Source: Bacteroidales bacterium (GTDB lineage: Bacteria; Bacteroidota; Bacteroidia; Bacteroidales; UBA1402). From it: a stretch of DNA of 64,000 nt. Both the position numbers and the translations under genes were made by a program. Location of the stretch: contig JAFUDT010000005.1 of assembly GCA_017464285.1 (NCBI GenBank), forward strand, positions 1 to 64,000. Direction: 5' to 3'. The notes under the pieces are model-generated. The model worked only from the letters and a program-made list of their open reading frames with translations, ran no database searches and was not told the DNA's origin. Position 1 is the stretch's first letter. Each line of letters begins with the position of its first letter. Below are positions 30,650 through 35,912 of the stretch, piece by piece.

Positions 30650-32491
30650 TTATTCTACCGTGACGGATTTGGCCAGATTGCGCGGCTGGTCTACGTCACG
30701 CCCCTTGTTGATGGCGATGTAGTAGGCAAACAGCTGCAGTGGGATGGAGGAGATGACCGGCGCCAGGCATTCGTCCACCGGTGGAATCTCCAGACAGTAG
30801 TCGGCCATGGAGGCGACAATCGTATCACCCTTGGTCACCAAGGCAATCACTTTACCTCCGCGGGCTTTGATTTCCTGGATGTTGCTGATGGTCTTTTCGT
30901 AAACACTGTCGTTGGTGGCGATGATGACAGTAGGCATCTCGTTGTCGATCAGGGCAATGGGACCGTGTTTCATCTCGGCGGCAGGATAACCCTCGGCATG
31001 GATATAGGATATTTCTTTGAGTTTGAGAGCCCCCTCCAGCGCCAGCGGATAGTTGTAGCCTCGTCCCAGATAGAGGAAATTGTGTGCATAGGTGAAGATG
31101 AGCGACATATTCTTTATCTGGGCATCCAGCTTAAGGACTTCCTGCAGCAGGCTGGGCAGCGAGTAGAGACTTTTCAGGACAGAGAGGTAGCGCTGGTGGC
31201 CGATGCTGTTCTTTTCCTTGGCGATGGCCATGGCCAGCATACAGAGCACTGTCACCTGTCCGGTGAAGGCTTTGGTCGAAGCTACGCCGATTTCCGGCCC
31301 GACATGGATGTAGGTACCTGAGTGAGTGGCTCTTGGAATAGAAGATCCGATGACATTGCAGATACCGTAGATAAATGCCCCCTGGCTCTTGGCCAATTCG
31401 ACGGCAGCCAGGGTATCGGCTGTTTCGCCCGACTGGGAGATGGCGATGACGACATCATCCTTGTTGATGACCGGGTGACTGTAACGAAATTCAGAGGCAT
31501 ATTCTACACAAACGGGTATCTGGCAGAACTCTTCGATCATGTGTTTACCGATGAGTCCGGCATGCCAGGAAGTACCACAGGCTACAATGATGATACGTCT
31601 GGCATTCAGGAATTTATCTTTATGGTCGATGACACCGGAGAGTTTGACATCGGTGGCCGTCTGGTTGATGCGTCCGCGGATGCAGTCCACGATGGTCCGC
31701 GGCTGCTCGTTGATTTCCTTGAGCATGAAATGCTCGTAACCGCCTTTCTCCAGCTGAGTGATGTTCATGTTGAGTTTCTGGACGTCGATTTTGGTCTCCT
31801 CATTCTGGAAATTGACAATTTTCAAGGGCTCATGACGGTGTATGCGGACAATCTCCTCATCGTTGAGATAGACCACTTTATCGGTATATTCGATAATGGG
31901 GGTGACATCCGAGGCGATGAAATACTCGTCCGGGCCGATACCGATAACCATGGGGCTACTCTTGCGTGCGGCGATGATTTCGTCTTTGTTGCCTTTCTCG
32001 ATAACGGCGATGGCATAGGCGCCAACCACCTGCTTCAGGGCCGACTGGACAGCTTCGAAAAGACTGCAGTGGTTGGTTTCCATGATATATTCGATGAGCT
32101 GTACCAGGACTTCGGTATCGGTGTCGCTTCTGAAACTGTAGCCCTCTTTTTCAAGAGCTTGTTTGAGCAGGGCATAATTCTCGATGATACCGTTGTGTAT
32201 GATGGCCAGTGAACTGTTTTCAGAGTAGTGCGGATGGGCGTTCACATCATTGGGCTCACCGTGGGTGGCCCAACGGGTATGGGCGATACCGATGGTGCCA
32301 TGGGTGTTCTTGGACTGGGCAAAATGCTCCAGATCGGCAACTTTCCCCTTGGTTTTGTAGATGTTGATATCCTCATCGTCGATAAGTGCCACGCCGGCAC
32401 TGTCATAACCGCGATATTCCAGACGATGCAGTCCTTTGACAAGGATGGGGTAGGCCTGACGGTTTCCAAGGTAAGCGACAATTCCACACAT
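30650..32491 (-). CDS. glmS: Glutamine--fructose-6-phosphate aminotransferase (isomerizing)
   Basis: A 613-residue GlmS. The N-terminal glutaminase has the nucleophile Cys2 (MCGIVAYLGNRQ) and RLEYRGYDSAGVAL; two SIS isomerase domains follow (ACGTSWHAGLIGKHMIEE; ISQSGETADTLAAVELAK; GRGYNYPLALEGALKLKE) and the C-terminal NLAKSVTVE. It makes glucosamine 6-phosphate for peptidoglycan and LPS. No glmS ribozyme is expected or seen upstream. A -7 box lies at 32538-32545. Confidence 0.97.
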   Translation of the reverse strand: MCGIVAYLGNRQAYPILVKGLHRLEYRGYDSAGVALIDDEDINIYKTKGKVADLEHFAQSKNTHGTIGIAHTRWATHGEPNDVNAHPHYSENSSLAIIHNGIIENYALLKQALEKEGYSFRSDTDTEVLVQLIEYIMETNHCSLFEAVQSALKQVVGAYAIAVIEKGNKDEIIAARKSSPMVIGIGPDEYFIASDVTPIIEYTDKVVYLNDEEIVRIHRHEPLKIVNFQNEETKIDVQKLNMNITQLEKGGYEHFMLKEINEQPRTIVDCIRGRINQTATDVKLSGVIDHKDKFLNARRIIIVACGTSWHAGLIGKHMIEEFCQIPVCVEYASEFRYSHPVINKDDVVIAISQSGETADTLAAVELAKSQGAFIYGICNVIGSSIPRATHSGTYIHVGPEIGVASTKAFTGQVTVLCMLAMAIAKEKNSIGHQRYLSVLKSLYSLPSLLQEVLKLDAQIKNMSLIFTYAHNFLYLGRGYNYPLALEGALKLKEISYIHAEGYPAAEMKHGPIALIDNEMPTVIIATNDSVYEKTISNIQEIKARGGKVIALVTKGDTIVASMADYCLEIPPVDECLAPVISSIPLQLFAYYIAINKGRDVDQPRNLAKSVTVE

Positions 32492-32537: not shown

Positions 32538-32545
32538 CAAATGTA
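32538..32545 (-). promoter_or_regulatory. -7 box for glmS
   Basis: CAAATGTA on the plus strand reads TACATTTG on the minus strand, 46 bases upstream of the glmS ATG. No clear -33 element was found at the usual spacing. Confidence 0.55.
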
Positions 32546-32976
32546 CAACGAATGGAAAAAAAAGCGGCAGTCTCAGGTAAAAAATATTCGGCTTACTTTC
32601 TGTACAGTGAAAAATACTGCGCCAATTAATTGTTTCATAAGTATTTTAGCGGTAAATGGAGGCGATTTCAGCCTCTGAGAATCGAATATTTGGGAGCAGT
32701 CTGTAATCGTGTCGGGAAAAAACGTAATCTGAGGCGGTTTTAGCGATGGAAAGGCCCCGAAAGACAGAAAACTCAGAGAAGTCGGGTAGCTTGGAGAAAA
32801 CCTCATTAATAACTTAAATCCTTTAACTTTCCAAGAAGAGGCAGGGAGATGCCGATTCTGCATAAAAGACAGCCAGCTGTATGCAGTCTGCCTTGTCAAT
32901 GATATACGATAAAACGGAGGCCTCGGGAGGTGACGGATTTTTAATGTTGTACTGTTGTTGCGATGTTGATTTTACA

Positions 32977-33012
32977 AATGTACAATTATTATATTAGTTA
33001 CAATTGTACATT
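32977..33012. promoter_or_regulatory. Inverted repeat overlapping a minus-strand promoter
   Basis: AATGTACAATT (32977-32987) and AATTGTACATT (33002-33012) are perfect inverted repeats, spacing 14 bases. They cover the -7 (TACATTTG, 32975-32982) and the -33 (TTG, 33001-33003) of a minus-strand promoter with an 18-base spacer. This arrangement is what a repressor operator would look like. The likely binder is the XRE protein at 33459 (inference). Confidence 0.45.
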
Positions 33013-33111
33013 ATTCATGATTAAGCGGATCACTTGCTCGGGTTGCTGTTCATACAAAGATATCGGCTGATGTATCTACTTTGGAAAATAGGTATAAACC
33101 GCTGGTTCTAA

Positions 33112-33130
33112 AATATGTAATCTACATATT
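33112..33130. promoter_or_regulatory. Inverted repeat AATATGTA-N3-TACATATT
   Basis: Perfect 8-base arms spaced by ATC, a typical dimeric operator. The inner half-site ATGTA recurs in the palindromes at 33202-33211 and 33438-33452. Confidence 0.4.
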
Positions 33131-33395
33131 AACCCCCTTTTTATCGCTATTTTCCGTCCTATTCCCCAATCTGGCTCCTTATATTGATGCCGCTGCTTTA
33201 ATGTATATACACTAATTAGTTGGGTATTAGTGCAATTATATCATTGTGTCCGAATGAAAGAGACATAAATAATTAACCGTGAAGGAATGTGAATTCGTTT
33301 GTCTTTATTTACGTTTGCTTTTGTCATGTGTTTTCTTGATGTACGGAATTGAATTTTGGATTTGTATACATGGGGAAAATATTTTTCTTTTGTCA

Positions 33396-33426
33396 TTTGC
33401 CCGATGAAAATATTGGTGTACATTTG
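33396..33426 (+). promoter_or_regulatory. Promoter of the XRE regulator
   Basis: TTTG (33396-33399), 19 bases, TACATTTG (33419-33426). The transcript should start near 33432, so the ATG at 33459 is favoured over that at 33438. The inverted repeat ATGTAT-ATT-ATACAT at 33438-33452 lies between the transcription start and the chosen ATG. Confidence 0.65.
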
Positions 33427-33458
33427 TGGAGGTAAAAATGTATATTATACATCGCGAT

Positions 33459-33893: not shown

Positions 33894-33919
33894 TTTCGCC
33901 TGCGGCCGCCGCTATATTT

Positions 33920-34059
33920 TCGGCCTAAGGCCGACTACATATTCTCGCCTAAGGCCGACCATAATCCTTACGACTGTATTTTCGGCCTAATGCCGAGTAC
34001 TTTTCCTCGCCTTAGGCCGACCATATATCCTTACGATTATATTTTCGGCCTAAGGCCGA
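33920..34059. repeat. Imperfect tandem repeat of 62-63 bp carrying palindromes
   Basis: Five palindromic cores occur: TCGGCCTAAGGCCGA at 33920-33934 and 34045-34059, a variant TCGGCCTAATGCCGA at 33982-33996, and shorter forms ending AAGGCCGA or TAGGCCGA at 33945-33958 and 34007-34020. The pair spacing gives a period of 62 then 63 bp, so about 2.3 copies are present. There is no unique-spacer pattern, so it is not CRISPR. It lies between the XRE gene and its terminator. Confidence 0.85.
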
Positions 34060-34080
34060 CCATATAGGCGGCGCCGGGGC

Positions 34081-34111
34081 AATGCAACACTTCGTTTGCA
34101 TTGCGTTTTTT
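34081..34111 (+). terminator. Terminator after the XRE gene and repeat
   Basis: AATGCAA/TTGCATT stem around an 8-base loop, followed by GCG and a run of six T. The rest of 34112-34182 is unassigned GC-rich sequence before the pyrK promoter. Confidence 0.6.
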
Positions 34112-34182: not shown

Positions 34183-34214
34183 TTTGCGATTGCGCCCGGC
34201 TGGCACTATATTTG
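34183..34214 (+). promoter_or_regulatory. Promoter of pyrK
   Basis: TTTG (34183-34186), 20 bases, TATATTTG (34207-34214). The 41-base block 34176-34216 matches the holA promoter block at 33 of 41 positions. Confidence 0.68.
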
Positions 34215-34236: not shown

Positions 34237-35013
34237 GTGAAACAAATCATTGATTTGAGGCTGGTCGGTAAGCGGGAGTGGCCAAATGCAGTGCTTTTGA
34301 AGCTGCGTTCGGATGTGCTGCCACTGCCGGCTGCAGCCCCTGGACAGTTTGTCCAAGTTCGTGTGGATCAGTCTCCAGCTACATATCTCCGTCGTCCGAT
34401 ATCCATCCATTTTATCGATGAAAAGCAGCAGGAACTCTGGCTGCTGGTGCGTAAGGCCGGAGCCGGAACACGCGCCATGGCATCCTGGCCTGTGCAGACG
34501 ATGGTCAACCTGGTCATGCCCTTGGGGCATCCTTTTACGCTGTCCGGCCTCTCTTCTTCGGATAAGGTCTTGCTGACGGGGGGAGGTATCGGATTGGCTC
34601 CCTTGCTGTATTTGGGCAAGGTCCTGAGTCAAAAGGGACTGCGGCCTGTTTTCCTGTTGGGCGGCAGGACCTCCGATGACTTGATACAGATTCCCGAATT
34701 TGAACAATACGGTGAGGTCTGCCTCAGCAGCGAGGACGGTTCTGCCGGTGCCCGTGGCCTGTTGACCCGGCATCCTGTTCTGAAAGAGCGTACTTTTGAC
34801 AGAATATACTGTTGCGGACCCAAGCCTATGATGGTCGCGGTCGCCGCCTATGCCCGGGAAAGGGGCATTTGGTGCGAGGTCTCACTCGAAAATACGATGG
34901 CATGCGGCCTCGGTGCCTGTTTATGCTGTGTGGAGGAGACGACCGAGGGTCACCGCTGTGTCTGTCAGGATGGTCCTGTGTTTAACATCAATCAACTGAA
35001 ATGGCAGATCTGA
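34237..35013 (+). CDS. pyrK: Dihydroorotate dehydrogenase electron transfer subunit
   Basis: A 258-residue PyrK. An FAD domain ([13 protein letters not shown]), an NAD-binding region ([18 protein letters not shown] and YCCGPKPMM), and a C-terminal [2Fe-2S] motif with Cys residues in [21 protein letters not shown]. It passes electrons from PyrD to NAD+. No ATG fits; GTG at 34237 (or the adjacent GTG at 34234) is the start, 22 bases after the -7 box. It overlaps pyrD by 13 bases. Confidence 0.93.
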
Positions 35014-35912
35014 GCGTCAATCTTCCTGGTCTGAACCTGAGAAATCCGGTGCTGACCGCATCGGGCACTTTCGGCTATGGTCGTGAATACACTGATTTCA
35101 TCGACCTTTCACAGCTGGGTGGCATCATCGTCAAGGGAACCACCCTGCACGCCCGTGAGGGCAATCCCTATCCCCGCATGGCCGAGACCCCGGCCGGCAT
35201 GCTCAATGCTGTCGGACTGCAGAACAAAGGGGTGGATTATTTTATCGCGCACATATATCCGGAAGTCAGCCGTTACGATACCCGGGTGTTGGTCAACGTT
35301 TCGGGTTCCACCATCGAAGACTATGTGGCCTGCGCTGAAAAAATACAGGCCCTGGACAAGATTCCGGCTATCGAACTGAATGTCTCATGTCCTAATGTCA
35401 AACATGGCGGCATGGCCTTCGGGGTCACGGTGGAAGGCATCTCCAGTGTGGTCAGCGCGGTTCGCCGTGTCTATCATAAACATTTGATGGTCAAACTTTC
35501 ACCCAATGTGACCGATATCGCCGAAATCGCCAAGGCGGCGGAAGCGGCCGGGGCGGATTCTGTCTCTTTGATCAATACGCTGCTGGGAATGTCCATCGAT
35601 GCGGAAAAACGTCGTCCCAGACTGTCAACCGTCACCGGCGGGTTATCAGGTGCCTGTGTCAAACCTGTGGCCTTGCGAATGGTATGGCAGGTGGCCAAAG
35701 CTGTCGGTATTCCTGTCATAGGACTGGGGGGCATCCAGTCGGCCACAGATGCCATAGAGTTTCTGCTGGCCGGTGCGAGCGCCGTCCAGATCGGGACGGC
35801 CAATTTTATCGATCCCGCCGTCAGCGTGAAGGTGGTGCAAGGTATTGAAGACTATTGTGAACGTCATCATATTGAGGCAGTCTCGTCATTGACCGCTGCC
35901 CTGGAAATATAA
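35001..35912 (+). CDS. pyrD: Dihydroorotate dehydrogenase catalytic subunit (class 1B)
   Basis: A 303-residue protein with FMN and orotate sites: [32 protein letters not shown] (the class 1 base Cys in NVSCPN), LSPNVTDI, and [31 protein letters not shown]. With PyrK it forms the NAD+-using class 1B enzyme. Translationally coupled to pyrK. Confidence 0.96.

Follow-up and report, generated by a model that had tools for sequence, protein, structure and literature searches.

The intergenic region between glmS and the gene of an XRE-family regulator is probably, to judge from the sequence comparisons below, where an XRE-type repressor found across the Bacteroidales controls its own expression by binding the palindrome wTTACAWWTGTAAw. 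This region (945 bp, with a GC content of 32% at 32977-33452) is flanked by the diverging glmS (-) and XRE (+) genes and belongs to the window, i.e. the whole 64-kb stretch of DNA that was analysed. Its conserved element is an outward-facing palindrome, TACA-WW-TGTA, of which the sequence given above is the 14-bp profile consensus. The operator array is of a known kind, that of an autoregulated XRE repressor. Neither the operator nor its order-wide array seems to have been described: in the open-licence literature that was searched we found no paper with these operator words in Bacteroidales, or with a regulator of this kind. The coordinates of the features are collected in Table 1.

Table 1. 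Genes, promoters, candidate operators and dyads of the glmS-XRE-pyrK locus (positions in the window).
Feature	Position	Strand	Remarks
glmS	30650-32491	-	diverges from XRE gene
O1, TTTACAAATGTACA	32971-32984	.	perfect TACAAATGTA core at 32973-32982
Possible leftward promoter, ATTG-N18-TACATTTG	32975-33004	-	pattern match alone; overlapped by O1 and O2
O2, GTTACAATTGTACA	32997-33010	.	perfect palindromic TACAATTGTA core at 32999-33008
Dyad AATATGTA-ATC-TACATATT of the sequence-only reading	33112-33130	.	present; conservation absent (sister alignment)
Dyad TGTATATACA of the sequence-only reading	33202-33211	.	present; conservation absent (sister alignment)
XRE promoter, sigma-ABfr type, TTTG-N19-TACATTTG	33396-33426	+	exact match
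O3, TGTACATTTGTGGA	33417-33430	.	weaker, promoter-proximal, over -7 box; 6.8 bits
Dyad ATGTAT-ATT-ATACAT of the sequence-only reading	33438-33452	.	in 5' leader; left part AAAATGYATA conserved
XRE-family regulator, 144 aa	33459-33893	+	PF01381, 27.4 bits, above cut-off
pyrK	34237-35013	+	PF10418 match; dihydroorotate dehydrogenase 1B
pyrD	35001-35912	+	dihydroorotate dehydrogenase 1B

A sequence-only reading of the region had counted 11 occurrences of ATGTA or TACAT at 32977-33452, some of them forming clean dyads, and had read them most simply as a field of repressor operators for the XRE protein. The 11 positions were confirmed exactly, as were the dyads at 33112, 33202 and 33438. The predicted excess over composition-matched shuffles was also found: the mean is 1.9 in mononucleotide and 2.5 in dinucleotide shuffles, and in both cases none of 5000 reaches 11. 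The cluster is local, since the 64 kb as a whole show no excess of the word (66 occurrences vs 68 expected). However both the ATGTA word and the region were picked post hoc, after seeing the data. When all 5-mers are considered over 910 bp of the intergenic region, the chance that some 5-mer matches the excess of ATGTA is ~0.08, and the enrichment of GTACA in this stretch exceeds that of ATGTA. Enrichment of the 5-mer was thus rejected as a stand-alone argument, being weak once word choice is allowed for.

Conservation of the dyads, which had also been expected, was not found. In two sister species, 1 and 4 copies of the word are found in the 500 bp that precede the orthologous gene (1.6 expected in each), and a single one of the 11 sites, that at 33419, is intact in both sisters at the aligned columns; this sole retained word is part of the -7 box of the XRE promoter. 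In this comparison the ATGTA cluster is particular to one species. The symmetry of the dyad at 33438 is lost in the sisters (ATGCATAATATACAG and ATGCATATTATACAG), and the dyads have disappeared despite the fact that the recognition helix of the HTH is identical in all three proteins. Their TGTA-to-TACA spacings are moreover unequal (0, 2, 3 and 5 bases, plus overlapping TGTACA) and so fit poorly with one dimer. In spite of a real local enrichment and of three clean dyads, it is therefore very improbable that these dyads are themselves the XRE operators. An operator field under the XRE protein remains well supported in kind, with TACA-WW-TGTA as its element in place of the dyads named. Three of the 11 words (32978, 33007 and 33419) are arms of TACA-WW-TGTA sites or overlap them; the other eight do neither. 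The ATGTA-rich appearance is best explained by these sites in part, the rest being AT-rich drift specific to the species. As this case shows, a genuine cluster of a word within a single genome can mark the right region and the wrong element.

The word ACAWWTGT recurs upstream of the gene in 14 relatives (32 occurrences vs 2.5 in shuffles). As this recurrence had been noticed post hoc, a test was made on fresh material: every 3+gap+3 word was ranked, without bias, in the 250 bp upstream of 40 independent orthologs outside the discovery set. TAC-N4-GTA ranks first, with 32 of the 40 loci for 3.1 expected (z 17; shuffle maximum 7.1), and ACA-N2-TGT second, with 35 of 40. ATG-N0-TAC, taken from the earlier dyads, is about 19,000th in the same ranking.

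We then considered the 2-kb upstream regions of 59 orthologs, a set that partly overlaps the 40, and counted sites from 12 bits upwards. Of these 59 orthologs, 51 carry sites in the 200 bp next to the gene, 118 in total vs 1.8 in shuffles. A second cluster is present at -400 to -600 (43 sites vs 1.2 expected), with few sites at -200 to -300. The spacings inside the arrays repeat at ~23-24, 34-35, 45-48 and 57-59 bp, i.e. with a period of ~11.25-11.3 bp (R 0.54, n=143); many genera contribute to this periodicity, but the genomes are related and a strict p-value is therefore not meaningful.

A blind search for tandem site pairs in 393 genomes gave the same locus. A pair was found in 57 genomes, vs two for the reversed-pattern control, and the XRE gene was present at 22 of the 30 pair loci that were fetched; about half of the remaining eight lie near contig ends. 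Perfect TTACAWWTGTAA sites in 12 genomes are directly upstream of the XRE gene in 20 cases of 74. The background is that given by pattern searches and by the stretches around the orthologs.

In the present genome (2.37 Mb) TACAWWTGTA occurs at two sites only, 32973 and 32999, the cores of O1 and O2. Both sites have a PWM score of 14.4 bits, O1 being joint best of the 64-kb window, and they are 26 bp apart. The strong sites are here ~450 bp upstream and the promoter-proximal O3 is weak. In both sister species the core ACATTTGT stands at the position of O3. Distal copies in these sisters are only half-good: the near-core ATGTG of O1 is maintained, and GACAAATGTGG stands at the place aligned to O2.

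The XRE protein, 67-73% identical to those of the two close sisters, is present in 309 of the 393 Bacteroidales genomes sampled, where database records label it merely as a “helix-turn-helix transcriptional regulator”. It consists of a five-helix HTH of the 434/SinR type (residues 1-70), a disordered linker and a conserved C-terminal IxKIVVFYSDNTFEEF. The AlphaFold pLDDT is ~92 for residues 1-70 and below 50 for the C-terminal half, and Foldseek with this model returns the 434 repressor, SinR and DdrO (E about 0.01-0.05). No peptidase or known oligomerisation domain was found in the C-terminal part. For the start codon, 33459 is likelier than the upstream ATG at 33438 because the latter is out of frame in one genus (g2). 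The AAAATGYATA of this leader (here at 33438-33458) stands at a fixed place after the promoter in most of the family; at one locus (L035, ATGCATACATACAGTCAATTTATATGA) it starts a short reading frame overlapping the XRE start codon. Three orthologs lack any site, and their recognition helix reads SQCLNG-xN in place of SHxLxG-RN; the three belong to one genus and thus count as one evolutionary event. As the arrays follow the XRE gene and the site-less orthologs have a changed helix, the XRE protein is the natural candidate for binding, and we infer that it is itself the binder.

The same 10-bp core palindrome is nevertheless known from unrelated proteins: CopY, whose operator was reported as TACANNTGTA and refined to RNYKACANNTGTMRNY, and BlaI/MecI bind TACA/TGTA (PMC7253601). 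CopY/CopR and BlaI/MecI are winged-helix proteins of the PF03965 family with different targets, and one of that family could control the XRE gene through these sites. This seems quite unlikely. Three genomes carry sites without any PF03965 match (G043, which is 99% complete and has seven sites at its XRE gene, G006 and G008), the present genome has just a partial match of 24 bits, and the loss of sites coincides with the change of the XRE recognition helix. A BlaI/CopY-type binder is therefore disfavoured.

The XRE promoter is of the sigma-ABfr type of Bacteroidota, whose consensus is published (PMC7366714) and is matched by the TTTG-N19-TAnnTTTG found here. Its boxes, -33 at 33396-33399 and -7 at 33419-33426, are conserved in three species, and the pattern TTTG-N17..20-TAnnTTTG occurs 173 times genome-wide vs 23 for the reversed control. 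The TACAT at 32541 is probably the -7 box of glmS. The conserved words might simply be the -7 boxes (TAnnTTTG, commonly TACATTTG) of a promoter or of several: the proximal site lies on the -7 box here and in most orthologs, 35 of 39 proximal-most sites being centred on TT, and the minus strand at O1/O2 is promoter-like too. But the palindromy reaches TAC-N4-GTA and further, which goes beyond the requirements of a -7 box; distal sites show no strand preference, with AA, TA, AT and TT centres; the arrays are phased; and in 14 upstream regions other TAnnTTTG are enriched ~1.6-fold vs ~20-fold for ACATTTGT. The promoter element accounts for a single word among the 11 and leaves the palindromic arrays unexplained; a reading in terms of -7 boxes only has little chance of being right. 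The possible promoter on the minus strand also bears on the role of the distal pair, since O1 and O2 could serve another transcript that runs leftward, either in the direction of glmS or as a small RNA without annotation, and not the XRE promoter from afar. We consider this unlikely, although less so than the two preceding alternatives, because the distal cluster at ~-400 to -600 persists throughout the order whatever the upstream gene and without leftward -7 bias, and because no known RNA family was detected near it, with the exception of RNase P in one genome.

Autoregulation is the rule in the XRE repressor family (PMC12565409). In the proposed scheme dimers of the XRE protein would bind wTTACAWWTGTAAw, and binding at 33417-33430 would block the sigma-ABfr RNA polymerase at the -7 box and limit expression of the XRE gene itself; repression by this protein is what we infer from the site positions, the usual location of the proximal site on the -7 box being suited to self-repression. 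The two clusters are near -100 and -500 and the phasing is seen within clusters. Bound dimers presumably act cooperatively, and a DNA loop would perhaps join the distal and proximal clusters, as suggested by the layout alone: a distal cluster that has no strand preference and persists whatever the upstream gene would suit an auxiliary operator acting via a loop.

Such a system resembles 434/lambda CI, SinR, DdrO and ImmR in its five-helix HTH of the 434/SinR/DdrO type and in the short palindromes at the promoter of its own gene. It differs from them by the operator sequence, by the C-terminal disordered linker with its conserved tail, and by its location at a genomic housekeeping locus and not at a phage or stress locus. 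For RcoLS20, the XRE repressor of plasmid pLS20, looping of the DNA between a pair of operators was demonstrated (PMC4207663); this repressor likewise has two site clusters, one of them over a promoter. The RcoLS20 loop is of 75 bp and concerns divergent conjugation promoters, whereas the loop supposed here would be of ~400-500 bp with no consistent divergent gene. If the loop is real, a dominant gut order would here possess an autoregulatory switch that works by looping and is well conserved.

The gene order gives a lead to function. A dihydroorotate dehydrogenase gene lies just downstream of the XRE gene at 22 of 42 order-level loci (pyrK-pyrD neighbours in orthologous loci being recognised by tblastn), so that about half of the orthologs directly precede such genes, of two types. 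The pairs are mostly in the same direction, with gaps mostly of 30-100 bp (examples are L018, L019, L023, L032, L058, L159 and L160). The type of enzyme varies by genome, pyrK-pyrD of class 1B or a class-2 pyrD, and the XRE neighbourhood is kept. In Parabacteroides distasonis (UNS60_RS15295) and Bacteroides finegoldii (UHF62_RS12145) the order is holA, a long intergenic region, the HTH regulator, pyrK and pyrD, with weaker site arrays in both positions. The order glmS-XRE-pyrK is seen in two congeneric species and in one species from a sister genus. In the present genome pyrK is preceded by a separate promoter at 34183, without an operator; co-regulation of XRE and pyrK is therefore not evident here. 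It is only tentatively proposed that this single-copy, order-wide regulator might act, via two phased clusters and a ~400-500-bp loop, on its own expression and in many species also on that of the downstream pyrimidine gene. The Bacteroidales would then have a hitherto undescribed regulator that responds to, or sets, their pyrimidine or redox state. The conserved candidate operator offers in any case a readily testable binding site and a means of recognising orthologs.

Several further elements were examined around the locus. A phage origin was rejected, as no similar phage DNA was found and protein comparison gave only distant HTH matches. No Rfam family was detected in the region; in one other genome an RNase P RNA gene (RF00010) is close to the XRE gene (L158:1320-1672). 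No conserved reading frame was noticed among the small ORFs within 32573-33423. The direct repeats TTTTGTCA / CTTTTGTCA (33318 and 33387) were set aside, being common to three species of the genus and not a theme of the wider family. Two intergenic blocks conserved in three species, 32674-32690 and 33287-33326 (CTGAGAATCGAATATT; TTAATCGTGAAC), are distinct from the operator. Many sigma-ABfr promoters of this genome have, besides the boxes, a common spacer near TTTGCGATTGNNCTCGGCTTGCACTATCTTTG (e.g. 34183-34214), possibly a longer promoter consensus or the mark of a common extra factor. Between the XRE stop codon and pyrK there are two terminator-like hairpins, and a unit of ~52 bp bearing inverted repeats of the TTCGGCCTAAGGCCGA type is repeated three times at 33912-34088.
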